DNA from: Methylophaga sp. | Lineage (GTDB): Bacteria > Pseudomonadota > Gammaproteobacteria > Nitrosococcales > Methylophagaceae | Reading direction: 5' to 3' | DNA length: 64,000 nt | Assembly: GCA_002733715.2 (NCBI GenBank) | Contig: NVWQ02000055.1 | Coordinates: 99,748-163,747, forward strand | The notes under the pieces: model-generated | Seen by the model: only the letters and a program-made list of their open reading frames with translations | Database searches by the model: none | Told to the model about the DNA's origin: nothing | Shown: positions 13,625-48,261 of the stretch, piece by piece | Layout of the letters: each line of letters begins with the position of its first letter | How positions within the stretch are numbered: position 1 is the first letter of the stretch | Made by a program: the position numbers and the translations under genes

Positions 13625-14434
13625 TTAAATTTTAACTAAAATTTCACCCATGCCAATGCCGCCTAAATCTCCCGCATAACGCTGTACGCGAGAAAACATG
13701 TCTAAATTGGCAAATTTGGTGTCTAAATTACGGAAAGAAGCTAACATTAACGGTAAAAACGCCAATGTATGTGGGCCACAGTCATTAAAGTTTGCTGGGA
13801 TCTGAGCTTCTTTCAGCAATAACAGTGTGCCTCGCTTCATCCCGTAACCAAGATGAGCACCGACATCGCCTAATACAGCAATTGTGCCTGAGATCATTCT
13901 TCCGCCGCAATAATCACCCGCATTGCCTTCAATTAAGATATAACCGCGACGCATATGATCACCGGTGCGCGCACCAGTATTGCCCGTTACTATAACGGTT
14001 CCACCAGTCATACCATTTTTATTGCCAACACGTGCTCCACCTACAATATCGCCGGCATTACCGTTAATTTTTATCTGCCCACCTTTCATTTCGCACGCCG
14101 TATAAATTCCCGTATTACCCGTTACAAGAATATAACCATTAGTCATCATTGCACCGAGGTAGGCACCGACATTTCCTTTTATTTCAATGGTGCCATGGCT
14201 CATTTGGTTGCCAATAAAGTCTAGCTTATCACTGCTATTTTCAAACAGGATATGCTTTGCATTATCACCACTAACATCAAAAACACTGTCAACTCGAACC
14301 GTGCTGTTGCCTGATGGCAGTTCAATTGCTGCAATATCTGCGGCCGACTTACCCTCCAAATTATCTGCAGTAAGCACCGAACAATCAATTCTTTGTTTAG
14401 GAGATTGTTTTAGCGTTAATTTTAAAGCGCTCAT
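13625..14434 (-). CDS. fhcC: Formylmethanofuran dehydrogenase/formyltransferase-hydrolase complex subunit C
   Basis: Repeated GXXGD/GNAG beta-helix: GNTGIYTACEMKGGQIKINGNAGDIVGGARVGNKNGMTGGTVIVTGNTGARTGDHMRRGYILIEGNAGDYCGGRM. Operon with fhcDAB. Confidence 0.94.
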   Translation of the reverse strand: MSALKLTLKQSPKQRIDCSVLTADNLEGKSAADIAAIELPSGNSTVRVDSVFDVSGDNAKHILFENSSDKLDFIGNQMSHGTIEIKGNVGAYLGAMMTNGYILVTGNTGIYTACEMKGGQIKINGNAGDIVGGARVGNKNGMTGGTVIVTGNTGARTGDHMRRGYILIEGNAGDYCGGRMISGTIAVLGDVGAHLGYGMKRGTLLLLKEAQIPANFNDCGPHTLAFLPLMLASFRNLDTKFANLDMFSRVQRYAGDLGGIGMGEILVKI

Positions 14435-15327
14435 GCCATAATCTCCTGTAAATGGAAGTGGAAGGGGCCAAGTTTGCCACCATAGTTACCGGCACTAATT
14501 CGGCGAATACCATTTTCAGCACCTAAATCACACACCGCTTGAATGCCTACTCGCATTGCGACATCAATATCTTCTTTGGTTAAACCGTCGATAACAATTT
14601 CCATCACTGATTCAACCTCAGGGGAAAGGTCACTCTTGGTTTGGCCTTTTAAAGTTGGACAAAACGCATCATTGGTTGAGGCATTTAATGCTTTAAATTT
14701 CGAGCCCACTTTTGAACCGGAGCGAACAACACCACCCGGGAAAGGCATAATGACATTAGGGCATTTTTTCATTTCAACAATTGCGGCTTCACAAGCTGTT
14801 AAGGCTTGAGCTTGCGATTCGGCTAACACCAGGAAGTTACCACCACCCACTGAGGCTTGAACGCCTGTTTTTTCTTGGGTTAGGAACTCTCCATCCATTA
14901 CCGGAATACGCCAATAACGTTTACCATCAATCATTTTTGAGATTTGGAAACCATCACCAAAGAAACGCAGGTTCTGGCCTAATGCAATTTCAGTATCACT
15001 TTCTAAACCTGAAAATAACGCTGATGTGGGCGAAGTGAGCACACACTGACCTGAGCGGGTTTCAACTTGTTTTGCTAGGCTTTTTCCACCCATTGCAAAA
15101 ATCAAAATAGATACGCCGGGCCGGCCATCGGGTGTTTCACTTGGCTCAAGCACTCTTTCAATACCGGCCTCACAGCCACAAGCAATTACCGACGTCGCAA
15201 ACCCGGTGAAAGTTTGTGCTGAAATCATCGCCCATTTTGCATTGAGTGCAGTAATGATTAAGCGCGTGCCTTTCATTGGGAATGCTTCTGCGAAGGTTTC
15301 ATCAATTGTTACACCATTGATAATCAT
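14431..15327 (-). CDS. fhcD: Formylmethanofuran--tetrahydromethanopterin N-formyltransferase
   Basis: MIINGVTIDETFAEAFPMKGTRLIITALNAKWAMISAQTFTGFATSVIACGCEAGIE. Confidence 0.96.
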   Translation of the reverse strand: MIINGVTIDETFAEAFPMKGTRLIITALNAKWAMISAQTFTGFATSVIACGCEAGIERVLEPSETPDGRPGVSILIFAMGGKSLAKQVETRSGQCVLTSPTSALFSGLESDTEIALGQNLRFFGDGFQISKMIDGKRYWRIPVMDGEFLTQEKTGVQASVGGGNFLVLAESQAQALTACEAAIVEMKKCPNVIMPFPGGVVRSGSKVGSKFKALNASTNDAFCPTLKGQTKSDLSPEVESVMEIVIDGLTKEDIDVAMRVGIQAVCDLGAENGIRRISAGNYGGKLGPFHFHLQEIMA

Positions 15328-16991
15328 ATTTTGCCTCCTGCATGTAACGGCTGCACGGTCAGACTACCTCGACCGTCATCAACAATTTCATCATCACTGA
15401 TTTTAAAGTTACCTAGTTTCTGAGTATGGTACTTATCAAAATACGGTTTCAATGATTTTTCAATGCTGTTGTCATATTCTGGTTTAACCACATGTGTTGT
15501 GCCCCATGTGACTTCGACAATCTCACCATCTTTAACAACCATAGTGCCATCTTTAAATACATAATCTGGTTTGCTGAACATTTTTTCACGATCTTCATCA
15601 TCGGTATAAACGGTAATATCCGCTGCAGTTCCTACACCTAAGCTACCACGATCAGCAAGACCAACTAATTTAGCCGCACCCGCACGGGTCATAATGGCAA
15701 TTTCATATAAAGTATATTCACGATCTAAAGAAGCTAAATGGCTGGCTTTTTGAGCTTCTGGATGCAAGGTCGATAAAATATCGTTACGGAAGGTCTTATC
15801 CATCAATAAACGTATCAAATGTGGATAACTGGTAAACGGCGCCCCATTTGGGTGATCCGTTGTTAAGAACACACGCCAAGGGTCATCAACCATTAAGAAT
15901 GTTTCTAAACCAATCATCCATTGCAAAGCATTAACATAGCTTTGATCTTTATATTTGAATGGCAATACACCACAACCAGCATCACATTCAATATCCATAA
16001 CCACCCATTTGTTTGGGCTAGCATGAGGATGAGCAGCATGTTGACGCATAGTATCGCCTGATGCTGTAACCGTTTGACCAAATAAGATCTGGCCAACGTC
16101 GGCAGTAATGTTTTTGTGTTTATTAATGGTCTCTGCAATTTGAGCAGAACCTGATGAGAACTTAAAGTCGCCTTCAGTACCATAACTATGGAACTGGATA
16201 TGGGTCATATGCATTGGCAAACCGTTGATGCCTTCCATTGTATCAATGGTCATTTCTAAGTTACCGGCCACACCTAGGTTACAGCCATGAACATGCAAGG
16301 GATGTGGCACACCTAACTCTTTCACCGCAGTAGCTAATCGCAATAAAATATCACGAGGCGTCACACCGTAATATTGGTTTTTTTCATCTAAATCAAGTTT
16401 ACGTTGATTGAATTTAAACGCATTAATACCGCCCGGGTTGACCACTTTCACGCCAATAGCGTGGCTGTGGGTCATTGTCCAAGCCACATAGTTATTAATC
16501 GCTTCTTGATCACCGTTCGATGCCATCATTCTGAGTAGGAAATCATCACTACCCAACATGACATAACCCCCTTTATCGATGATCGGCGTATCACCCATTT
16601 CCATATGTGCTTGACGTGCATTGACCGGCAAAATTGCAGGTTCGAAACCTGCTGTATAACCCATTTCAGCATAACGATAGCCCGCCGTTAATGTGCTAGG
16701 TGCAGCATGACCACAACCACTTCGCATTAACTCGGTTCGAGCAACAACATCGGCCGCATGATCTTCTGGCAACATGGTGCGGGCAATATTAACCTTCCCA
16801 CCACCAATATGCGTGTGCATATCAATCGCACCGGCCATCACCACCTTACCCCGCAGGTCAAACTCTTTATCAATACGATCGTCGCCCGGCCTGGCAATAA
16901 TGCGGCCATCTCGGATATAAATATCTTTGACTTCGTTATTGATACTATTGGCTGGATCGTAAATTCTGCCGCCTGTTAGTTTTGTTAACAT
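15324..16991 (-). CDS. fhcA: Formylmethanofuran dehydrogenase subunit A (amidohydrolase fold)
   Basis: GAIDMHTHIGGGKVNIARTMLPEDH, PHPLHVHGCNLGVAGN, FLTTDHPNGAPFTSYPHLIRLLMDK. Confidence 0.96.
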   Translation of the reverse strand: MLTKLTGGRIYDPANSINNEVKDIYIRDGRIIARPGDDRIDKEFDLRGKVVMAGAIDMHTHIGGGKVNIARTMLPEDHAADVVARTELMRSGCGHAAPSTLTAGYRYAEMGYTAGFEPAILPVNARQAHMEMGDTPIIDKGGYVMLGSDDFLLRMMASNGDQEAINNYVAWTMTHSHAIGVKVVNPGGINAFKFNQRKLDLDEKNQYYGVTPRDILLRLATAVKELGVPHPLHVHGCNLGVAGNLEMTIDTMEGINGLPMHMTHIQFHSYGTEGDFKFSSGSAQIAETINKHKNITADVGQILFGQTVTASGDTMRQHAAHPHASPNKWVVMDIECDAGCGVLPFKYKDQSYVNALQWMIGLETFLMVDDPWRVFLTTDHPNGAPFTSYPHLIRLLMDKTFRNDILSTLHPEAQKASHLASLDREYTLYEIAIMTRAGAAKLVGLADRGSLGVGTAADITVYTDDEDREKMFSKPDYVFKDGTMVVKDGEIVEVTWGTTHVVKPEYDNSIEKSLKPYFDKYHTQKLGNFKISDDEIVDDGRGSLTVQPLHAGGKI

Positions 16992-17006
16992 CTCTATCCA
17001 GCCCCT

Positions 17007-18281
17007 TTAAAGCGCTTTTTCAACAGCGGTTAGTACGTCGAAGGTACTTGGCAAGCCACTGTCACGTAATTTTCGTAATGGTACGGATACCACGCCATCT
17101 GTTCTAAATGCTCGACCTACATGGTCAATTCCCGGTGTTCCCACAGGAATAAACACTTCTGGTTCTTGCTCAAAGGTCATGCCTGATCGACCTAATACCG
17201 CCGTTGTGGCGTTTGATTTAGGTGGTGTGCGATCAATATTGAAGCTAGAGATCCATATTAAGGCGTCCACCTCATCGTTTTCTAACATCCGGGTCGTATC
17301 ACAAAGATGCGGGTCGTAATCAGGGTAACCTTGATTAAAATTGGTTCGCATAGGGAAGCCAGACTGCCAAGCGGACACTTGATTAACGGTAATGCTGCCC
17401 TCTTTTCCACCCAAAGGTAAACCACTTGAACGTGTGTCGTCATTTAACTCTTTAACCATTTCACACACGGTTTGAACTGTCGCTTCAGCATGATCAAAAT
17501 CTAAATCACCTGCCGCCCATGTCACCACAGAATATTTGGCCTTTTTTAACTGTTCAGCCAATACAGCCAGATCACTCACTGCAATGCCGCCCACTTTTTT
17601 AGCTTGAATTGCTTTTCCTTTTACTAAAGCGCGTAAAACTGAAACCACTTCTGGTAAATCAGCATCATCACACGCTAATATTTGAGCTTTTTTTCCTTTT
17701 GGTGAAGTAGAAGCATTGCCCGATGGTGTTTTACCAAGGTAAACCACTTGCCGTGATTCAATCTCTTGATCAAACATGCTTTCATCATTCCACACCATAC
17801 GTTCAAAAAACCGAGGATATTCCGCTTCAATATCGCTGCCCACCACCACCAGCAAATCAACTCGATTCCTCACTTCGGTTAAGGTGGTCAGCATCCAACC
17901 GGTATCTTGCAACACTAAGGTATTTCTAAAGCCTGCAGCTGAATCCATATTATCAATGGTAGCTCGGCTTTTATCAGCCAAAGCCATTGCAGAGCGTGCA
18001 CCGTTTAAATCGGTAGCCATTCCACCTATAACAGTTTGCTTGCTCTTGCGTAGCAAATTAACAATCTGGCTGACGGCTTCGTTTAAAGACACCTCTTTGC
18101 CTTTTACCCGTGGCGAGGTATCCGTTATAGGGGTTTCAAAACCTTTTTTAGTGACGGCATCACCGTTTTCAATGATAGATACATTATTACCTTCAACTTT
18201 GATTGTTAAATCATCTGAGGCAATACCACAAAATGGACTTGGCACTTCTTGCCAAACGCCTGCTCCGGTTTGTTCGGTCAT
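17007..18281 (-). CDS. fhcB: Formylmethanofuran dehydrogenase subunit B (bacterial FhcB)
   Basis: Molybdopterin-oxidoreductase-like fold (PFCGIASDDLTIKVEGN) in the fhcBADC order. Confidence 0.92.
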   Translation of the reverse strand: MTEQTGAGVWQEVPSPFCGIASDDLTIKVEGNNVSIIENGDAVTKKGFETPITDTSPRVKGKEVSLNEAVSQIVNLLRKSKQTVIGGMATDLNGARSAMALADKSRATIDNMDSAAGFRNTLVLQDTGWMLTTLTEVRNRVDLLVVVGSDIEAEYPRFFERMVWNDESMFDQEIESRQVVYLGKTPSGNASTSPKGKKAQILACDDADLPEVVSVLRALVKGKAIQAKKVGGIAVSDLAVLAEQLKKAKYSVVTWAAGDLDFDHAEATVQTVCEMVKELNDDTRSSGLPLGGKEGSITVNQVSAWQSGFPMRTNFNQGYPDYDPHLCDTTRMLENDEVDALIWISSFNIDRTPPKSNATTAVLGRSGMTFEQEPEVFIPVGTPGIDHVGRAFRTDGVVSVPLRKLRDSGLPSTFDVLTAVEKAL

Positions 18282-21383: not shown

Positions 21384-23567
21384 TCACATTAAATCAACCG
21401 GATCAATATCAATCGACCATCTGACTTTACGAGCCAATTTCAATTTTGAAATAGCGTTAATGGTGTGATCTAATAATTGATGAATGGGTTTTCGTTTTGA
21501 ACAGGACAATAAGAGCTGTGCTCTATATCGACCTGCTCTTTTTTCCATTATTGCTGGCACGGGGCCTAATATCATTACTTGTTGTTGATTAGCTTTATTT
21601 AATAACTCTAATGCTTCGGTTAAAAACAGCATGGCGAGAGATTGTTGTTTATCCTCTGCTCGAATCACGCAGAGTGATCCCCCCGGGGGTAACCCCATAT
21701 CCTTACGTTGTGCTAAAATTTTTTGGGCAATAAAATTATAATCTTGCCCTATTAAATCTTTCCAAAAATCATTTTTTATTTGGCTGGTTTGAATAAACAC
21801 TTCGCCAGGTTTTTGTCCTCGTCCTGCTCTGCCTGTTACTTGGGTAATCAGTTGCGCTAAAATTTCTGTAGCCCGAAAATCGGCACTAAATAAACCTTGA
21901 TCAGCATCTAAAACGCCGACTAAAGTGACATTATGAAAATCATGACCTTTAGCTAACATTTGTGTGCCCACTAATATTTTGGCACCGCCTTGTTGAATCT
22001 CATCAATAATTTCAGCAAAGACATTCACTTTTTGGGTGGAATCACGATCAATTCTAATCACCTCTGTTTCAGGGAAATATAGCTGCAAAGTTTGTTCTAA
22101 TTGCTGTGTTCCCACACCATAGGTTTTTAGTTCCGTTGTTTTACAAGTAGGGCAATGTTGAATTAAACGATGAATCAAACCACAGTGGTGACACATTAAA
22201 ATATTGCGTGATTGATGCACAATCATTTTTGCATCACATGAAGTACAAGATGCGATCCAATTACAATCATGACACATTAATACAGGCGCAAAGCCTCGGC
22301 GATTTATAAATAATAAAACCTGATTACCTAGGCTGATTTGCTGTTGAATCGCTTTATATAAAATAGTTGAGATACCGCTATTTGCAGTCGGGCCTTCACT
22401 ATCTATCACTTTTATTTTAGGTAATTTAGCGCCGGTAGCACGCTCTGTTAAATTTAACAGCGCATATCGCCCTTGTTCGACGTTATAGAGACTTTCTAGT
22501 GATGGGGTAGCACTTCCTAAGACAATAGGGATATCTGCTCTCTGTGCTCTTATTAAGGCGACACTACGTGCATGGTAACGCAAACCATCTTGTTGTTTAT
22601 AAGAACCATCATGTTCTTCATCAATAATAATCAAACCAATATTTTTTAGGGGCGTGAATACAGCTGATCGTGTTCCTATCACCACATCAGCCAAGCCATC
22701 TCGTGCTAATAACCACGCTTGTTTTCGATCACCGTCTGATACAGCAGAGTTTAGCACCACAATATTAGCATCTAAATGTTGGCGAAATCGCTGGACAAAC
22801 TGAGTGGTTAAACCAATTTCAGGAATTAGAATAAGTGCTTGTTTGCCTTTTTCAATAATTTGTTTTGTTAGTTGAATATAAACTTCTGTTTTGCCACTAC
22901 CTGTAATGCCATGTAGTAGATAAGGCTTAAAGCTATCATGATATTTCCAAACAGCACCAACTACATCTCGCTGTTGTTTAGATAAAGTATGAGATGGCTC
23001 AGTATCACAAGCTAATAGTGTTTGTTTTACTTGTTGATGCTGTTTTATTAGTTTTTTATCTTCAAGTGAAAATAATGATGATTTACAAGATCCTAATTCA
23101 GCTATTATCTGTTGTTGTGAAATAGCGTCTGAATAGTTAGCTAAATAAGACATTATTTGCTGTTGTTTTTTGCCTAGTTTTATTTCATCTTGGTTTAATT
23201 CTAACTGCCAATAAGTTTCAGTTTTTAATTCAGCGAGATCTTGTTGCCGTAGCTTTTTAGGTAATGCCGCCTGAAAACATTCTCCGATTGGATGATGGTA
23301 ATAATTACTGACCCAGTTAATAAGTTCAAAAGTAGTTTGTGGAATTAAGACTTGATCATCAATAATCTTTTCAATCGTTTTTAATTTAGCATTATACTTT
23401 TCAAATGTTGATGTTGAAATACCCACTATTATTCCTACTAGTTGCCGTGATCGAAATGAAACTAAAACTCTCATACCAATTTCAGCAGTGATATTTGAAT
23501 CTGTATTGAGATAATCAAAAACAGTTCGTAATGGACAAGGGATGGCAATATGCAGAATAGATGTCAT
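21384..23567 (-). CDS. priA: Primosomal protein N' (helicase)
   Basis: LLHGITGSGKTEVYIQLTKQIIEKGKQALILIPEIGLT, IIIDEEHDGSYKQQDGLRYHARSVA, Zn-binding CHDCNWIASCTSCDAKM...CHHCG. Confidence 0.97.
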   Translation of the reverse strand: MTSILHIAIPCPLRTVFDYLNTDSNITAEIGMRVLVSFRSRQLVGIIVGISTSTFEKYNAKLKTIEKIIDDQVLIPQTTFELINWVSNYYHHPIGECFQAALPKKLRQQDLAELKTETYWQLELNQDEIKLGKKQQQIMSYLANYSDAISQQQIIAELGSCKSSLFSLEDKKLIKQHQQVKQTLLACDTEPSHTLSKQQRDVVGAVWKYHDSFKPYLLHGITGSGKTEVYIQLTKQIIEKGKQALILIPEIGLTTQFVQRFRQHLDANIVVLNSAVSDGDRKQAWLLARDGLADVVIGTRSAVFTPLKNIGLIIIDEEHDGSYKQQDGLRYHARSVALIRAQRADIPIVLGSATPSLESLYNVEQGRYALLNLTERATGAKLPKIKVIDSEGPTANSGISTILYKAIQQQISLGNQVLLFINRRGFAPVLMCHDCNWIASCTSCDAKMIVHQSRNILMCHHCGLIHRLIQHCPTCKTTELKTYGVGTQQLEQTLQLYFPETEVIRIDRDSTQKVNVFAEIIDEIQQGGAKILVGTQMLAKGHDFHNVTLVGVLDADQGLFSADFRATEILAQLITQVTGRAGRGQKPGEVFIQTSQIKNDFWKDLIGQDYNFIAQKILAQRKDMGLPPGGSLCVIRAEDKQQSLAMLFLTEALELLNKANQQQVMILGPVPAIMEKRAGRYRAQLLLSCSKRKPIHQLLDHTINAISKLKLARKVRWSIDIDPVDLM

Positions 23568-23780
23568 TATTATAATTATAATATATATATTTAAAAGATT
23601 ATGTTGATGTTGTTTATTGTCTGTTGATATGTGGATAAACGATATTTAAAATTTAAAATCAAAAACTTAATTTAAATTACTATGTTGATAAGTAGCTTTG
23701 TTTTCATCTTTATACTTGTGGATAAACAGCTAAGTTATCCACAGCTAAAGTTATCCACAGCTTTTTATTACGTTTATAAA
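23568..23780. other. Candidate oriC / DnaA-box cluster with AT-rich region
   Basis: Perfect DnaA boxes TTATCCACA at 23735-23743 and 23751-23759 (+), and TGTGGATAA at 23630-23638 and 23717-23725 (-). Near-box tgttgataa at 23683-23691. AT-rich tract 23568-23610. Confidence 0.65.
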
Positions 23781-23801
23781 GTGCTTATACAGATGTTATT
23801 G

Positions 23802-24039
23802 TATAAACCCGTAATGCTTCAATCTGCAAGGTATTTACCAATATCGCGTCATCCTCGAGATCTTTTATCGAGGATCTTACAGTCTCCCACTAAGCTTGTG
23901 TTCAGCTTGACTGGGTAAACATGCGCTAGTCTTGCTTAAACTCAGATCCCGGCTACAAACCTGTCGGGATGAAGGGATAAGTGAAGCATGCTGGAATGAC
24001 GATGTGGTAAAATCTGCAACTTGATTGATTATGGGTATA
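23802..24039. repeat. Full-length nested palindromic element
   Basis: Outer ends tataaacccgtaatgcttcaatctgcaa / ttgcagt-like ctgcaacttgattgattatgggtata, inner arms cgtcatcctcgagatcttttatcgaggatct and agatcccggctacaaacctgtcgggatga. Confidence 0.7.
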
Positions 24040-24042
24040 TAA

Positions 24043-24561
24043 ATGAAAATAGCACTGATTGTTGCAACAGATCAGCAAGGATTAATAGGAAAAGACAATG
24101 ATCTTCCTTGGCATTTATCTGCTGATCTGCAATATTTTAAAAAAGTGACCATGGGTAAACCAATTATTATGGGTAGAAATACCCATGAATCGATAGGCCG
24201 ACCTTTACCTGGTCGACAAAATATTATTGTTACCAAAAATCGATCTTATAAAACAGAGGGTTGCACAATTGTTTATTCAACGGATGATGCGCTGTTGGCC
24301 GCAGCAGACGCCGATGAAGTAATGGTGATGGGTGGGGCATCTTTATATACACAATTATTACCACAAGCAGATAAACTTTATTTAACCTTAGTTCACGCTA
24401 ATTTAGAAGGCGATACTTGGTTTCCGGAGTGGCATACAGAGGAATGGCAACAGATAAGTCGAGAAGATCATCCGGCAGACGATAAAAATGAATATCCCTA
24501 CAGTTTTATCGTCTATGAAAAGATGGTTTATCCTCGTGACCATTCAAATTACAGAAAATAG
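24043..24561 (+). CDS. folA: Dihydrofolate reductase
   Basis: MKIALIVATDQQGLIGKDNDLPWHLSADLQYFKKVTMGKPIIMGRNTHESIGRPLPGRQNIIVT. Confidence 0.97.
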   Translation: MKIALIVATDQQGLIGKDNDLPWHLSADLQYFKKVTMGKPIIMGRNTHESIGRPLPGRQNIIVTKNRSYKTEGCTIVYSTDDALLAAADADEVMVMGGASLYTQLLPQADKLYLTLVHANLEGDTWFPEWHTEEWQQISREDHPADDKNEYPYSFIVYEKMVYPRDHSNYRK

Positions 24562-28229: not shown

Positions 28230-31200
28230 ATGGGTAACTTAGTTTTAAAAAATAAATTTTTAGCACTAAAAAAACAAATTCAGCAATTGAAAGCCAGTGT
28301 TTTTCTGGTCACGGCAATGTTGTTTTCAAATAGCGTTATAGCTATTGATATCGCCCAAAGCCCCTTGTTTATTGATCACTCAGCCACGCCGAACATCATG
28401 TTTGTTTTAGATGATTCTGGTTCAATGGATTTTGATATTCTCGCCGTGCCGCACTGGCGCGCTCAAAATTATGACCATGATGTTATGCGCTATTGGGCAC
28501 AAGGCGGTTGGCTGGGCTGGTCAGATATGCCTACGGGTAAAATTACTGATGCTACATGGCGATCTTATACCGGTTATTGTAATGACAGAAATGCAGATGG
28601 TATTTGCTATAACGAGTTATATCTCAATAATGATAATGATCGAGATGATAGTGAAAAAACATTCATTGCACCGGTTGTGGCTAATGATGATTGGGCTTTA
28701 GTATTACAGCATTGGTATTTTTGGGAATTCCCGAAAGGCTATTGTCAAATGCCAAGTGGTGGTGGTGGGCCAGCGTTGCCAGACGCCGGTGATTGGTTAC
28801 CAAGTCTAGATAAGGTTTTTGCCTTTTTAACCGGCTCGAAACAGGCGCATGCACATTCAGGTGATTTTGGCCCAGGCAGCCCTCACCAATGGAACGGAGC
28901 AAACCATCCAAGCAACCAAAACACAGGTGGTGCAGGCGCGTATAGACAAGAAGTGTGGGTAGATAAAGGCCCCCAGAGAAACACGTGGGATGTTGATAAT
29001 GAATATTATAATAATGCGACACCCAAAACGACATGCGAAACCGCTGGAGGCACCTGGAACAGGGACACGAACTACAATCATAGAGTGCTCCATCATAATG
29101 GATCGTATACGTTTGGTGGAACGACCACTCGCGCAGCCTGGGTAAATGGTTGGACTGGTCCAGCACCTGTAATTAATGCTCTAACGGGTGCAATAACAGC
29201 CAATGGCCCACTCAATAGCAACACGGGTGATTATCACAATGAATATTTAAAAAACTATACGACTGCCACCGGCGGAAGAGCACGGTTTGATATTAATGGT
29301 GACGGGGTGGGTAACGATACCAGTTTTAGAGAGAAAGATGAGCAAAGTAATAGGGTTGTTAATTATCGCTATATTCAACATTTAACTGATAATACCTATC
29401 CTCGTGCAGATTGGCATGCCTGTGGTAATACCAGCAACACCAACTATTGGATGGCAACCAATGCCTGTGCATCATTAAATAGCACTATGCCAGGCAATTA
29501 CCCTGTGGCATCGCCTAATAGCCCTATAGATAATCCAAGCAATAAAGTTGCGGCAAGTATTTATAATAAGGGTAAGACAGACTTTGTTCAATTAGGTAGC
29601 CCTGCAACCGTGCCTAGATATATCCGTTCATTGGATTGGGTGGGAGCACCCCGCACCCCTAATGTCGACGTGCTGATGCCGCCTTGGGCTGGGGGAACTA
29701 AACATGCAATGAGCAAACATGATCCTTTTCCATTAGTAGTAGATTGGCGCGTACGTTCAGCAGATTTTAACGTAATGTATTATCGTCCAAATAGTAACTA
29801 TAAAGTATGGGCAGACATAACAGAGGTGTTGCCAGGAGGATGTGCTAACAAATTTAACTGTGCACGTAGTAATCCACAATCAGGCACGGCAGGTTATGCT
29901 TTAACGGCAGACTTGGCGCGCCCTAGAGCTGAATATGGTGCGGCTAGTGCTGCTCCTGTCAATGTTCAGGCAGGCTTTGTTTATGAGGTCTGGGTGGATG
30001 ATGCAGGCCATTTACCATCGCGTACTAGACCTGAATGGATTCGGGGAGATACTAGTTGTGGTACAACGGGTGGTTATACTATTACAGCATCAGACGTTGC
30101 AGCAAGTTTTGGTGGTGCAGGTGTGGTGGATCCTGCGACAGGTATAACCTATGGAGCAGGTCAACATATTTGTTTTAGTTATTTAAATAAAGATCCAAAT
30201 GGTAATGCCGGTGATGGCGAGGTTGATTTATGGGATTCGCATTATCGGGTAGAAGTAAAGGATTCAAAAATTGTTGTACAAAAGGTGCGCCGTACCCCAC
30301 ATTTAAAAGGTGAACAATTATATAGCGCTACAGGCCCAGGTGGTACGCCACCGGTTTATACAGTTGGTTCGCACTTTTATTCGTCAGCACCTACAGGTTA
30401 TGCAGCGATGAAAGTAGCGATGTCAGATACGCGCGTGTTAAGTACAACGATCTATACTACAGCCAATTATGCAATGATTTCTTCTAGTGCCTTATGTTTA
30501 AAAGTGTTAGGCGAAGATCCAGCAAATCCAGGTCACTGTCGAACACTAGCTCAAGTAAAAGAAAATGCGGCCAACTGGTATCAATATAGCCGCAAACGTT
30601 CATTTGTTGCTAAAGGTGCAATAGGCTTGTTAATGGCTGAAATCCCAGATGTGAACTATGGCTTAATGGGTACCAAAAAACACAGCAGCGATAATATTTC
30701 CTCTTTATTTAGAGATGTATTCGATGGTAATGGGTCTGGTAATGGTGATGCTGATAGGAATACACATAATGATAATATTCGAAGCGCACTATATAGCTAT
30801 GTTTGGCCTGCTACAGGAACGCCTTTACGACGTGCATTAGAGCGTGCTGGTGAATACTTTGCCGGCCGTGGCCCTAATTTGGGCGCCGGTGTAAACAACC
30901 ACTCTATTAGCCCGATTATTGAAAGTTGTCAGAAAAATTACGCCATTATGTTAACCGATGGTTATTGGAATGGAAGTGATCCTATAGGCGTGTCTAATGA
31001 AGATGGAGATGCCTTTGGTGCGGCTTATAATGGCACCTTAGCCGATGTGGCGAAAAAATATTATGATGAAGATCTTCGCCCTCTTTTACCTAATGAGGTG
31101 CCAACAGATGCTTTTGATACCAATAGCCAACAACATTTAACAACCATAGGGATTGGTTTTGGTGTTTCTGGTTCGTTGGTAGATGACCCTGATCCGTTAA

Positions 31201-33587
31201 CGGCACCGGCTGAAGATGGTTGGCCGGGCAACCCTGATGCATCAGGTGCCTCTGTATTGACAGAAACATCAACATGGGGAGGCGATCCAAAGCCTAATTC
31301 AAATGCAGCCTTTAAAATCGATGATTTGTGGCATGCTGCATATAATAGCCGAGGCAGATATTATAAAGCTGATAACCCCGACGAATTAATTTTACAATTA
31401 AAAGCGGCTATCCTAACGGCACTAGCGGCGTCAGGTTCAGCAAGTGCATTAACAGCGAATGCGACCGTGTTAACGGGGACAACACGGGTATATCAAACGC
31501 TTTTCAAAAGTGATGAGTGGTCAGGCGAGATTAAGGCTTATAGCTTGACAGCTTCAGGTTTAATTAATCCGTCGCCAATATGGACAGCTGAGAACCAAAT
31601 AGCGGCTCCAGGGGCTCGGAAGATTTTTACTTTAGATGCTAGTGGCGCAGGTGCCTCGTTTAGCTGGGCAGCTTTAAGCCCTAGTCAGCAGCTTTTGCTC
31701 AGAACACGTTGGGTACCAAATGTGCTAGAAAATGTAGCATTTGGTCGAGCTCAGTTAGATTATATACGAGGCCAAAGCGATGCACAATTTAGAGACCGAG
31801 CAGGTAAGAAGCTAGGCGATATTGTTCATAGTGAGCCACTATATGTAGGCGGGCCTAATCAGTTTTATCCTGATTCATGGGAAACAGTGAACTACAGTAC
31901 CTTTAGATCGGCTAATAGTGGTCGCACGCCTATGTTATATGTGGGAGCAAACGATGGAATGATGCATGCTTTTGATGCCACAACTGGCGCTGAGAAGTAT
32001 GCTTATATTCCAAGCGTTTTATTACCTGATTTGAATCAATTAAGTCATAAGCCTAGCCCTGGCCAAGATTTTAGCCATCGTTATTATGTAGATGATACGC
32101 CAGTGAGTGGGGATGTGTTCTTTTCAGGTGCGTGGCATACCGTGCTTGTGGGTGGTCTTCGTGCCGGTGGCAAAGGCGTTTACGCTTTAGATATAACAAC
32201 GGTTCCAGGCGGTGCTTCAGAAACGACGATTGCCGGTAATAAGGCGTTATGGGAATTTACTACAGCCAACGATGTTGATATGGGTTACAGTTTTAGTCGA
32301 CCTAGTATTGTCAAATTAAATAATGGCGATTGGGGGGCAATATTTGGTAACGGATATAATAGTGCTAACCATAAAGCTGTACTTTATATTGTTGATATAG
32401 CGGATGGCTCGCTTATTAAGAAATTTGAAATGGGTGTAGGTGATGCTACCAATTCAAATGGCTTGTCAACGCCAACACTTGCCGATACCAATGGTGACAT
32501 GATTGCTGATAGGGTATATGCCGGCGATTTATTGGGCAACGTTTGGACTATCGATATTAGCGATGCAAATGAAGCGAACTGGAAGTTTAGTTATGACATA
32601 CTTGCGGTATCGAATACTGCAGCGGCTAAAACACCGTTGTTTACGGCATCAGATGGTTCGGGTGGAGTACAAGCTATAACGGCGCCAATTGCGCTGAGTC
32701 GTCATCCTTATGGGCCGCTTGCAGGTTATCTCTTAAACTTTGGTACAGGTAAGTATGTAGGATCAACAGATAACAGTGATACCGGTCAGACACTACAATC
32801 AATGTATGGTATCTGGGATTATGGCGTTGCAGGTGTTACAAGGGGAGATTTACTGGAGCAAATTATAGAATCTGATTTATCAGCTTCGGGCACAGATGTA
32901 CGAGTAACGTCTGCAAATGGGCCGGTGAATTGGTTAAATGCAGGCGTTAATGTGGGAGATGTTGGCTGGAAGAGCCAGGTTAATCAAAAAGGCTGGCGAA
33001 TGGATTTAGTCGACACCAGCGCTGCAGGTACACCGCCACCGAATCATGGTGAGCGCATTATTTCAAAAATGGTCATTATTGATGGTGCGATAATTTTCTC
33101 AACTCTATTACCGGCGGCAGATCCCTGTGATGGCGGGGGTAGCGGTTACACTATGGCTTTAATTGCAGCAACGGGTTCTCGTTTTGCGGCATCACCATTT
33201 GATATTAATGGTGACGGTTTATTCTCAACGGCTGATTTTGCTGATGTTGATAATGATGGGACAGCAGATACGGCTATTAGTGGAGTAAAATCAACAGCAG
33301 GTATTCCAAGTATTCCACTAATATTATATAAACCAGGAGGCGGAATGGTTTCTATTTCGGATCATAGCTCTGGTGGTTTAGTTATGGCAGGGCCATCAAC
33401 GGCAGGGACGGCAACATGTGTAGTAAGCGGAGGAGCGGGGAGCTGTACGGTTATACCCGGGCCACCACCGACATGTGTGATGACAGGAGCTGGAACCTGT
33501 ACGATTACCGGTACGATAGATGAAGGAACAGGCCCTTTAAATGGTCTTTCAAGCAAGGGCCGCCAAAGCTGGAGGCAGTTAGAGTAG
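28230..33587 (+). CDS. pilY1: PilY1 type IV pilus tip-associated protein/adhesin
   Basis: 1785 aa, VWA-like NIMFVLDDSGSMDFD, C-terminal propeller (TPMLYVGANDGMMHAFDATTGAEKYAYIPSVLLPDLNQL, HRYYVDDTPVSGDVFF), ending SKGRQSWRQLE. At the end of a minor-pilin operon. Confidence 0.95.
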   Translation: MGNLVLKNKFLALKKQIQQLKASVFLVTAMLFSNSVIAIDIAQSPLFIDHSATPNIMFVLDDSGSMDFDILAVPHWRAQNYDHDVMRYWAQGGWLGWSDMPTGKITDATWRSYTGYCNDRNADGICYNELYLNNDNDRDDSEKTFIAPVVANDDWALVLQHWYFWEFPKGYCQMPSGGGGPALPDAGDWLPSLDKVFAFLTGSKQAHAHSGDFGPGSPHQWNGANHPSNQNTGGAGAYRQEVWVDKGPQRNTWDVDNEYYNNATPKTTCETAGGTWNRDTNYNHRVLHHNGSYTFGGTTTRAAWVNGWTGPAPVINALTGAITANGPLNSNTGDYHNEYLKNYTTATGGRARFDINGDGVGNDTSFREKDEQSNRVVNYRYIQHLTDNTYPRADWHACGNTSNTNYWMATNACASLNSTMPGNYPVASPNSPIDNPSNKVAASIYNKGKTDFVQLGSPATVPRYIRSLDWVGAPRTPNVDVLMPPWAGGTKHAMSKHDPFPLVVDWRVRSADFNVMYYRPNSNYKVWADITEVLPGGCANKFNCARSNPQSGTAGYALTADLARPRAEYGAASAAPVNVQAGFVYEVWVDDAGHLPSRTRPEWIRGDTSCGTTGGYTITASDVAASFGGAGVVDPATGITYGAGQHICFSYLNKDPNGNAGDGEVDLWDSHYRVEVKDSKIVVQKVRRTPHLKGEQLYSATGPGGTPPVYTVGSHFYSSAPTGYAAMKVAMSDTRVLSTTIYTTANYAMISSSALCLKVLGEDPANPGHCRTLAQVKENAANWYQYSRKRSFVAKGAIGLLMAEIPDVNYGLMGTKKHSSDNISSLFRDVFDGNGSGNGDADRNTHNDNIRSALYSYVWPATGTPLRRALERAGEYFAGRGPNLGAGVNNHSISPIIESCQKNYAIMLTDGYWNGSDPIGVSNEDGDAFGAAYNGTLADVAKKYYDEDLRPLLPNEVPTDAFDTNSQQHLTTIGIGFGVSGSLVDDPDPLTAPAEDGWPGNPDASGASVLTETSTWGGDPKPNSNAAFKIDDLWHAAYNSRGRYYKADNPDELILQLKAAILTALAASGSASALTANATVLTGTTRVYQTLFKSDEWSGEIKAYSLTASGLINPSPIWTAENQIAAPGARKIFTLDASGAGASFSWAALSPSQQLLLRTRWVPNVLENVAFGRAQLDYIRGQSDAQFRDRAGKKLGDIVHSEPLYVGGPNQFYPDSWETVNYSTFRSANSGRTPMLYVGANDGMMHAFDATTGAEKYAYIPSVLLPDLNQLSHKPSPGQDFSHRYYVDDTPVSGDVFFSGAWHTVLVGGLRAGGKGVYALDITTVPGGASETTIAGNKALWEFTTANDVDMGYSFSRPSIVKLNNGDWGAIFGNGYNSANHKAVLYIVDIADGSLIKKFEMGVGDATNSNGLSTPTLADTNGDMIADRVYAGDLLGNVWTIDISDANEANWKFSYDILAVSNTAAAKTPLFTASDGSGGVQAITAPIALSRHPYGPLAGYLLNFGTGKYVGSTDNSDTGQTLQSMYGIWDYGVAGVTRGDLLEQIIESDLSASGTDVRVTSANGPVNWLNAGVNVGDVGWKSQVNQKGWRMDLVDTSAAGTPPPNHGERIISKMVIIDGAIIFSTLLPAADPCDGGGSGYTMALIAATGSRFAASPFDINGDGLFSTADFADVDNDGTADTAISGVKSTAGIPSIPLILYKPGGGMVSISDHSSGGLVMAGPSTAGTATCVVSGGAGSCTVIPGPPPTCVMTGAGTCTITGTIDEGTGPLNGLSSKGRQSWRQLE

Positions 33588-47202: not shown

Positions 47203-48261
47203 GTGATCACCCAACTTACTGTCTCAAACCTGCGTAATATTAGCGATCTTTCTTTGCAACCGATCTCAGGTATAAACTTGATCTTGGGTGAAAATGGATC
47301 GGGAAAAACCAGCTTGCTCGAGGCGATTCATTTGCTGGCAATGGGTCGATCGTTCAGAACAAGAACCTTAAAAAATGCTATTCAATTTGAGCAGCAGCAA
47401 CTCCAGATCACCGCCAAGATAAGCGGGGATATCCCCGTCGGTTTACAGTATGATAAAAATAAAGGCCTAAAAATTAGGCTTAACAGAGCGCCATTAAAAC
47501 GGCTTTCAGAACTGGCAATGCAGTTACCATTACAGTTTGTACCGGCTAACTGCCACCAGTTTTTTGAGAAAGGCCCTCGTTATCGCCGCCAACTTTTAGA
47601 TTGGGGTTTGTTTCACGTGGAACCAAGCTTTAATTTTCATTGGCAGGCGTATAAAAAAATAATTCAACAACGCAATGCCGCACTCAGGCAGCACAAACCG
47701 ACAAGCGAAATACAATTATGGGATGCCCATTTAGTCTCTCACGGTGACGCGATTACGGCCTTGCGGAAACAACAATTGAAAAAGGTGCTTGATCAGTTTT
47801 CAGTTTTGTTTGCGCGGTTATGCCCGGAGTTTTCAGGTGCGGAATTCACCTTAAAATATCGAAATGGTTGGCTCAAAGGTTCAACATTGGATCTAGCGCT
47901 TAGCGGATCGATAACGCGAGATCAACAGTTAGGGTATACGCGCTCGGGTAGCCATGCCGCAGATTGGTCTTTTAAAATTAATGATGCTGATCCGATAGAG
48001 ATGTTCTCGCGGGGGCAGCAAAAACTGTTTTTCCTTGCCTTATGCATGGTGCAAGCTAGCATGGCCGAGCACAGTAATCACGATAGAAGCATTCTCTTGT
48101 TGGATGATATAAGTTCAGAACTGGATCAGAAACATCAACAAAATGTAATGCAGGAACTTACTCTTTTGCCCGTGCAAACATTTGTGACCGCAACGGATTT
48201 TGAATTTAATAACAGTGAAAAAATGAAGATGTTCCACGTGGAACGCGGTCAAATACGATAA
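47203..48261 (+). CDS. recF: DNA replication/repair protein RecF (GTG start)
   Basis: LTVSNLRNISDLSLQPISGINLILGENGSGKTSLLEAIHLLAMGRSFRT and SILLLDDISSELDQKHQ. Confidence 0.96.
   Translation: MITQLTVSNLRNISDLSLQPISGINLILGENGSGKTSLLEAIHLLAMGRSFRTRTLKNAIQFEQQQLQITAKISGDIPVGLQYDKNKGLKIRLNRAPLKRLSELAMQLPLQFVPANCHQFFEKGPRYRRQLLDWGLFHVEPSFNFHWQAYKKIIQQRNAALRQHKPTSEIQLWDAHLVSHGDAITALRKQQLKKVLDQFSVLFARLCPEFSGAEFTLKYRNGWLKGSTLDLALSGSITRDQQLGYTRSGSHAADWSFKINDADPIEMFSRGQQKLFFLALCMVQASMAEHSNHDRSILLLDDISSELDQKHQQNVMQELTLLPVQTFVTATDFEFNNSEKMKMFHVERGQIR
47609..47624. promoter_or_regulatory. Candidate parS site
   Basis: TGTTTCACGTGGAACC, one base from the classical TGTTTCACGTGAAACC form. Confidence 0.75.
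48230..48245. promoter_or_regulatory. Candidate parS site
   Basis: TGTTCCACGTGGAACG with perfect palindrome GTTCCACGTGGAAC, resembling Pseudomonas-type parS. Confidence 0.75.

Follow-up and report, generated by a model that had tools for sequence, protein, structure and literature searches.

The question raised by this locus is whether a cluster of DnaA boxes between priA and folA can be the replication origin of a bacterial chromosome. In gammaproteobacteria the origin, oriC, usually adjoins dnaA/dnaN or mnmG, and a sequence-only reading of the DNA had proposed the priA-folA gap as an atypical candidate. The window, the whole stretch that was analyzed, has 64,000 nucleotides and corresponds to C56:99748-163747 of genome G000. 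From the evidence set out below, segment 23568-23759 is very probably the chromosomal replication origin of this Methylophaga-type gammaproteobacterium. The segment and its surroundings were found to contain the following features.

21384-23567, minus strand: priA, left neighbour of the origin (NF004067, 886.9 bits, cut-off 763)
23568-23621, no strand: predicted DNA-unwinding element, from A+T content and conservation, made up of the AT tract 23568-23593 and the conserved stretch AAAAGATTATGTTGATGTTGTTTATTGTC
23622-23630, minus strand: weak DnaA box TGTTGATAT adjoining the unwinding element, a conserved block (identity 0.84)
23630-23638, minus strand: exact DnaA box TTATCCACA, nearest to the unwinding element in a place like that of E. 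coli R1; family identity 0.605, below the other three exact boxes
23657-23669, plus strand: IHF-like site AATCAAAAACTTA (consensus WATCAANNNNTTR), a motif match with predicted binding
23683-23691, minus strand: degenerate DnaA box TGTTGATAA (TTATCAACA), one change from TTATNCACA
23717-23725, minus strand: exact DnaA box TTATCCACA of the conserved core, family identity 0.935
23735-23743, plus strand: exact DnaA box TTATCCACA of the conserved core, identical in 48 of 48 aligned copies
23751-23759, plus strand: exact DnaA box TTATCCACA of the conserved core, family identity 0.977
24043-24561, plus strand: folA, type 3 dihydrofolate reductase, right neighbour of the origin (NF008037, 183.9 bits, cut-off 168)
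47609-47624 and 48230-48245, plus strand: two parS-like sites inside recF, with 2 and 3 mismatches

The divergent arrangement of priA (left) and folA (right) described in the sequence-only reading was confirmed by family models for both genes. Its further statement, that almost all genes to the left of the site read leftward, was true inside the window but not over the 123 kb of contig to the left, where only 47 of 89 long ORFs do so. The two parS-like sites in recF were recovered as announced; recF-gyrB lies within the window at a distance of 24 kb from the origin, and the window gave three parS-like matches where 0.34 would be expected. Genes for formylmethanofuran dehydrogenase occupy 13625-18281 (subunit A was recognised by its family model) and fit a C1-using bacterium. 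The closest named relatives of the PriA protein were those of Methylophaga-type MAGs (NORP65, 78%) and Methylophaga pinxianii (58%), and the family f1 of the relatives is here called Methylophagaceae. Pilus genes are located between folA and tatC in the window and are absent from that place in relative G018. Behind GspH-type pilin genes, 28230-33587 encodes a protein of 1785 amino acids with a PilY1 beta-propeller domain.

The four exact 9-mer boxes, the near-match at 23683 and the adjoining AT-rich tract of the sequence-only reading were all present, with the positions and strands listed above. The exact boxes lie within 130 bp and form the only group of at least three among the 45 exact DnaA boxes of the genome (2.83 Mb, 80 contigs), the runner-up being a pair 75 bp apart on C73. 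A simple Poisson estimate puts the number of four-box clusters expected by chance at about 5e-8. The A+T content was 85.5% over 23568-23629 and 77% over 23560-23800, and the predicted AT-rich unwinding element is placed beside, not within, the box cluster. Mean pairwise identity among 48 family copies was 0.72 at 23590-23621, compared to 0.38-0.46 in the spacers between boxes. The weak box at 23622-23630 has the family consensus tATCCACAgg on the opposite strand, and the box position at 23683 is kept as TTAtNNACA in most relatives. The predicted IHF site lies between the boxes; a site with at most one mismatch was observed at the aligned place in 28 of 48 family copies, compared to 7% of shuffled sequences. 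No clear DnaA-trio (TAG repeats) was recognised when the alignment was inspected by eye, and no Rfam RNA family was found within 23300-24200. A short palindromic repeat (gatcctcgataaaagatctcgaggat-like) at 23850-23880, between the origin and folA, was also seen beside the G023 origin and looks like a dispersed intergenic repeat.

The anatomy is very likely that of an ordinary, canonical gammaproteobacterial oriC in an unusual place. The oriC of E. coli likewise has exact TTATCCACA boxes, one of them adjoining an AT-rich unwinding region, with an IHF site between boxes, and it too lies away from dnaA. The E. coli origin is, however, flanked by mnmG-mioC and not by folA-priA. It also differs in its GATC repeats: GATC is absent from 23560-23800 and rare in the relatives, so there is no sign of SeqA/Dam control. 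A compact core of three boxes separated by 7 and 9 bp, as in the window, is not known from E. coli.

This core, TGTGGATAA-N7-TGTGGATAA-N9-TTATCCACA, is found about 190 bp upstream of the priA start across Methylophagaceae. The exact layout was present in 20 of 29 genomes of the genus, a layout with TTATNCACA as the third box in 38 of 57 genomes of the family and, with few mismatches allowed, a matching layout in nearly all family genomes having the region. Elsewhere in the class it was observed in only one (G289) of about 380 genomes sampled. The core boxes were 0.94-1.0 identical across 48 copies, compared to 0.38-0.66 for the linkers. The intergenic boxes keep their place and spacing in three genera and are beside folA in a fourth, and the gene order folA - origin - priA - argS - fhc was kept in the four relatives compared. 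This bears on the idea of a chance cluster, or of a remnant of an integrated plasmid or phage origin, in whose support nothing was found. Conservation of position, spacing and neighbouring genes in related genera refutes it; together with the very low chance expectation and the lack of DNA similarity between the segment and any of 72,556 plasmids, its probability is vanishingly small.

Some genomes deviate from the common pattern. In G445, of the fourth genus, the boxes lie beside folA and PriA was not found at E <= 1e-60; the origin therefore seems to be independent of the presence of priA. In G421 (1.1 Mb) neither PriA (E <= 1e-60) nor a DnaA-box cluster was detected at the limits used. At locus L257 (G419), two oriC-like cores lie in tandem upstream of priA, at about 513 and 190 bp from the gene and 320 bp from each other. 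The G289 copy (L220), from an unrelated family, has the same three-box core at C1:3175085-3175128. Several TTATNCACA boxes were also seen upstream of priA in two other gammaproteobacterial families (L038 in G034 and L040 in G039), which could be cases of independent or of shared origin placement.

An origin should be located where the asymmetry between leading and lagging strands switches. GC skew was calculated at third codon positions for each ORF, with plus- and minus-strand genes kept separate, since gene direction also causes skew. In the window, the 22-24-kb bin is where skew turned from negative values to positive ones. On the 164-kb contig, cumulative GC skew reached its minimum at C56:122519, about 0.9 kb from the boxes; a minimum far from the locus, which the sequence-only reading had named as counting against an origin, was looked for and not found. 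To the left of the boxes the third-position skew was negative for genes of both strands (-0.111 for plus, -0.121 for minus) and to the right it was positive for both (0.051 and 0.167; Mann-Whitney p 6e-5 and 8e-5 for left versus right). The likelihood-best change point, judged on one 164-kb contig of an 80-contig assembly and not on a closed circle, was 123314-123790 of 163747, which is exactly the priA-folA gap.

The same analysis was applied to relatives. In G018 (1.5 Mb, 3 contigs) the best change point, 528544-528847, was again the priA-folA gap. Genes located between dnaA (453 kb) and the gap share the skew values of those left of dnaA, so in this genome dnaA is excluded as the switch. 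The gap was also the best change point in G423 (2.7-Mb contig), G006, G007 and G040. Altogether the change point fell in the gap for G000 and five of seven further testable relatives, G008 (41-kb contig) and G042 (origin at the contig end) being left out of the tally. In the other two it was about 9-11 kb off; for G015 the gap was nearly as good (74.7 vs 78.7), and for G010 the gap was not among the best five. As a positive control, outgroup G029 gave a switch at 841853-842118, with five boxes at 842005-842108 beside dnaA, showing that the method works. Raw GC skew alone was discarded in favour of the gene-strand-controlled skew because it was misled by gene orientation in G018 (cumulative minimum 29 kb off) and in G010; only the controlled analysis, not the raw minimum, places the G018 switch in the gap. 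Three things are read directly from the sequence: the boxes, the conservation of their layout, and the switch of replication strand at the segment. With the family-wide position they support the oriC candidate first proposed for the gap.

The boxes could instead belong to a site like datA or DARS that titrates or recharges DnaA, with IHF, while the true origin is elsewhere. In E. coli, datA combines five DnaA boxes with an IHF site and the core of DARS consists of three boxes (PMC4585315), so boxes plus IHF, as seen in the window, cannot by themselves tell oriC from datA or DARS. However, datA and DARS are not at a strand switch, whereas the strand asymmetry of six genomes switches at the priA-folA segment and not at dnaA. 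The genome also lacks any other cluster to serve as an origin, and a conserved AT-rich element abuts the boxes. A titrating or recharging site was therefore considered very improbable.

It could also be argued that the origin has remained at its usual dnaA-dnaN or mnmG location and that the priA cluster is accessory, or a DnaA-regulated promoter of priA or folA. On C19 of G000 both the dnaA-dnaN pair and the rpmH-rnpA-yidD-yidC-mnmE block are intact, and a single exact box lies 97 bp upstream of dnaA (gene names on C19 were read from ORF translations, dnaA alone being matched to its model). Against this stand the 24 family genomes without a box cluster at dnaA, where none or one box was found near the gene, the left-arm skew of the genes between dnaA and priA in G018, and the persistence of the cluster beside folA in G445, where no priA was found. 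An origin at the usual place was accordingly judged very improbable. The separation from dnaA noted in the sequence-only reading was confirmed: dnaA is on another contig in G000 and lies 74-216 kb from the origin in relatives with both on one contig.

Outside the family the ancestral arrangement was observed. Five outgroups have 2-7 boxes in the dnaA-dnaN gap. The order-level outgroup origins (G025-G030) share with the window a cluster of TTATNCACA boxes, which coincides with the strand switch in the single genome tested. They differ in being at dnaA-dnaN, a cluster that the family of the window appears to have lost, having the folA-priA cluster. From the family-wide folA-priA layout, the skew switch at that place and the missing dnaA box cluster, the simplest reading is that oriC left the ancestral dnaA-dnaN gap for the folA-priA gap before the family diversified, in a single move with loss of the old boxes, while dnaA-dnaN and rpmH-rnpA-yidC-mnmE stayed together elsewhere. 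No description of a Methylophaga oriC was found in the literature searched; DoriC may already list the locus by automatic prediction.

For the relocated origin, we infer from the order of the sites that DnaA and IHF bind the segment, that it is melted and that helicase is loaded there. DnaA would sit on the three core boxes (23717-23759) and IHF would bend the DNA at about 23657-23669. DnaA-ATP could then reach the AT-rich element by spreading across the weak box at 23683 and the two boxes at 23630 and 23622. Melting of 23568-23621 by DnaA-ATP would allow the helicase to be loaded, leading to bidirectional replication.

In five relatives (G006, G007, G001, G008 and G041; loci L016, L019, L020, L021 and L241) a second full oriC-like copy was found between priA and argS, and a decayed second copy was present in G020. 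A tree built from the origin sequences places the downstream copies together within {G006, G007, G001} and within {G008, G041}, apart from the upstream copies, and in the PriA tree the genomes with a second copy fall in one clade (80/92 support). The second copy is thus old and vertically inherited through speciation. Its core boxes stayed exact while the linkers changed, which suggests that it has a function. The third-position skew of priA itself, used to judge which copy is active in the dual-copy genomes, gave too few sites and no clear difference. Helicobacter and other Epsilonproteobacteria have a bipartite origin, oriC1-dnaA-oriC2 (PMC5043019), and in the five relatives a single gene is similarly flanked by two box clusters. 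In the relatives, however, this gene is priA and not dnaA, and each copy is a complete version of the same module; G000 differs further in having one cluster only. Putative double origins offer another possible parallel (PMC4403523). It is tentatively suggested that the two complete modules flanking priA in this clade act as a bipartite or twin origin, with DnaA bridging both and looping out the replication-restart gene, and that the single copy of the window is the unduplicated state of the family-wide relocated origin.

The twin copies of some relatives offer a natural experiment on whether two origins separated by about 2.5 kb can function together. Genomes with the relocated origin should not be started at dnaA, nor should their oriC be sought there. 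Methylophagaceae present a family-wide case in which oriC left dnaA while dnaA and its neighbours stayed together and the outgroups kept the ancestral state, and what fixes the position of oriC is thereby made testable in culturable Methylophaga.
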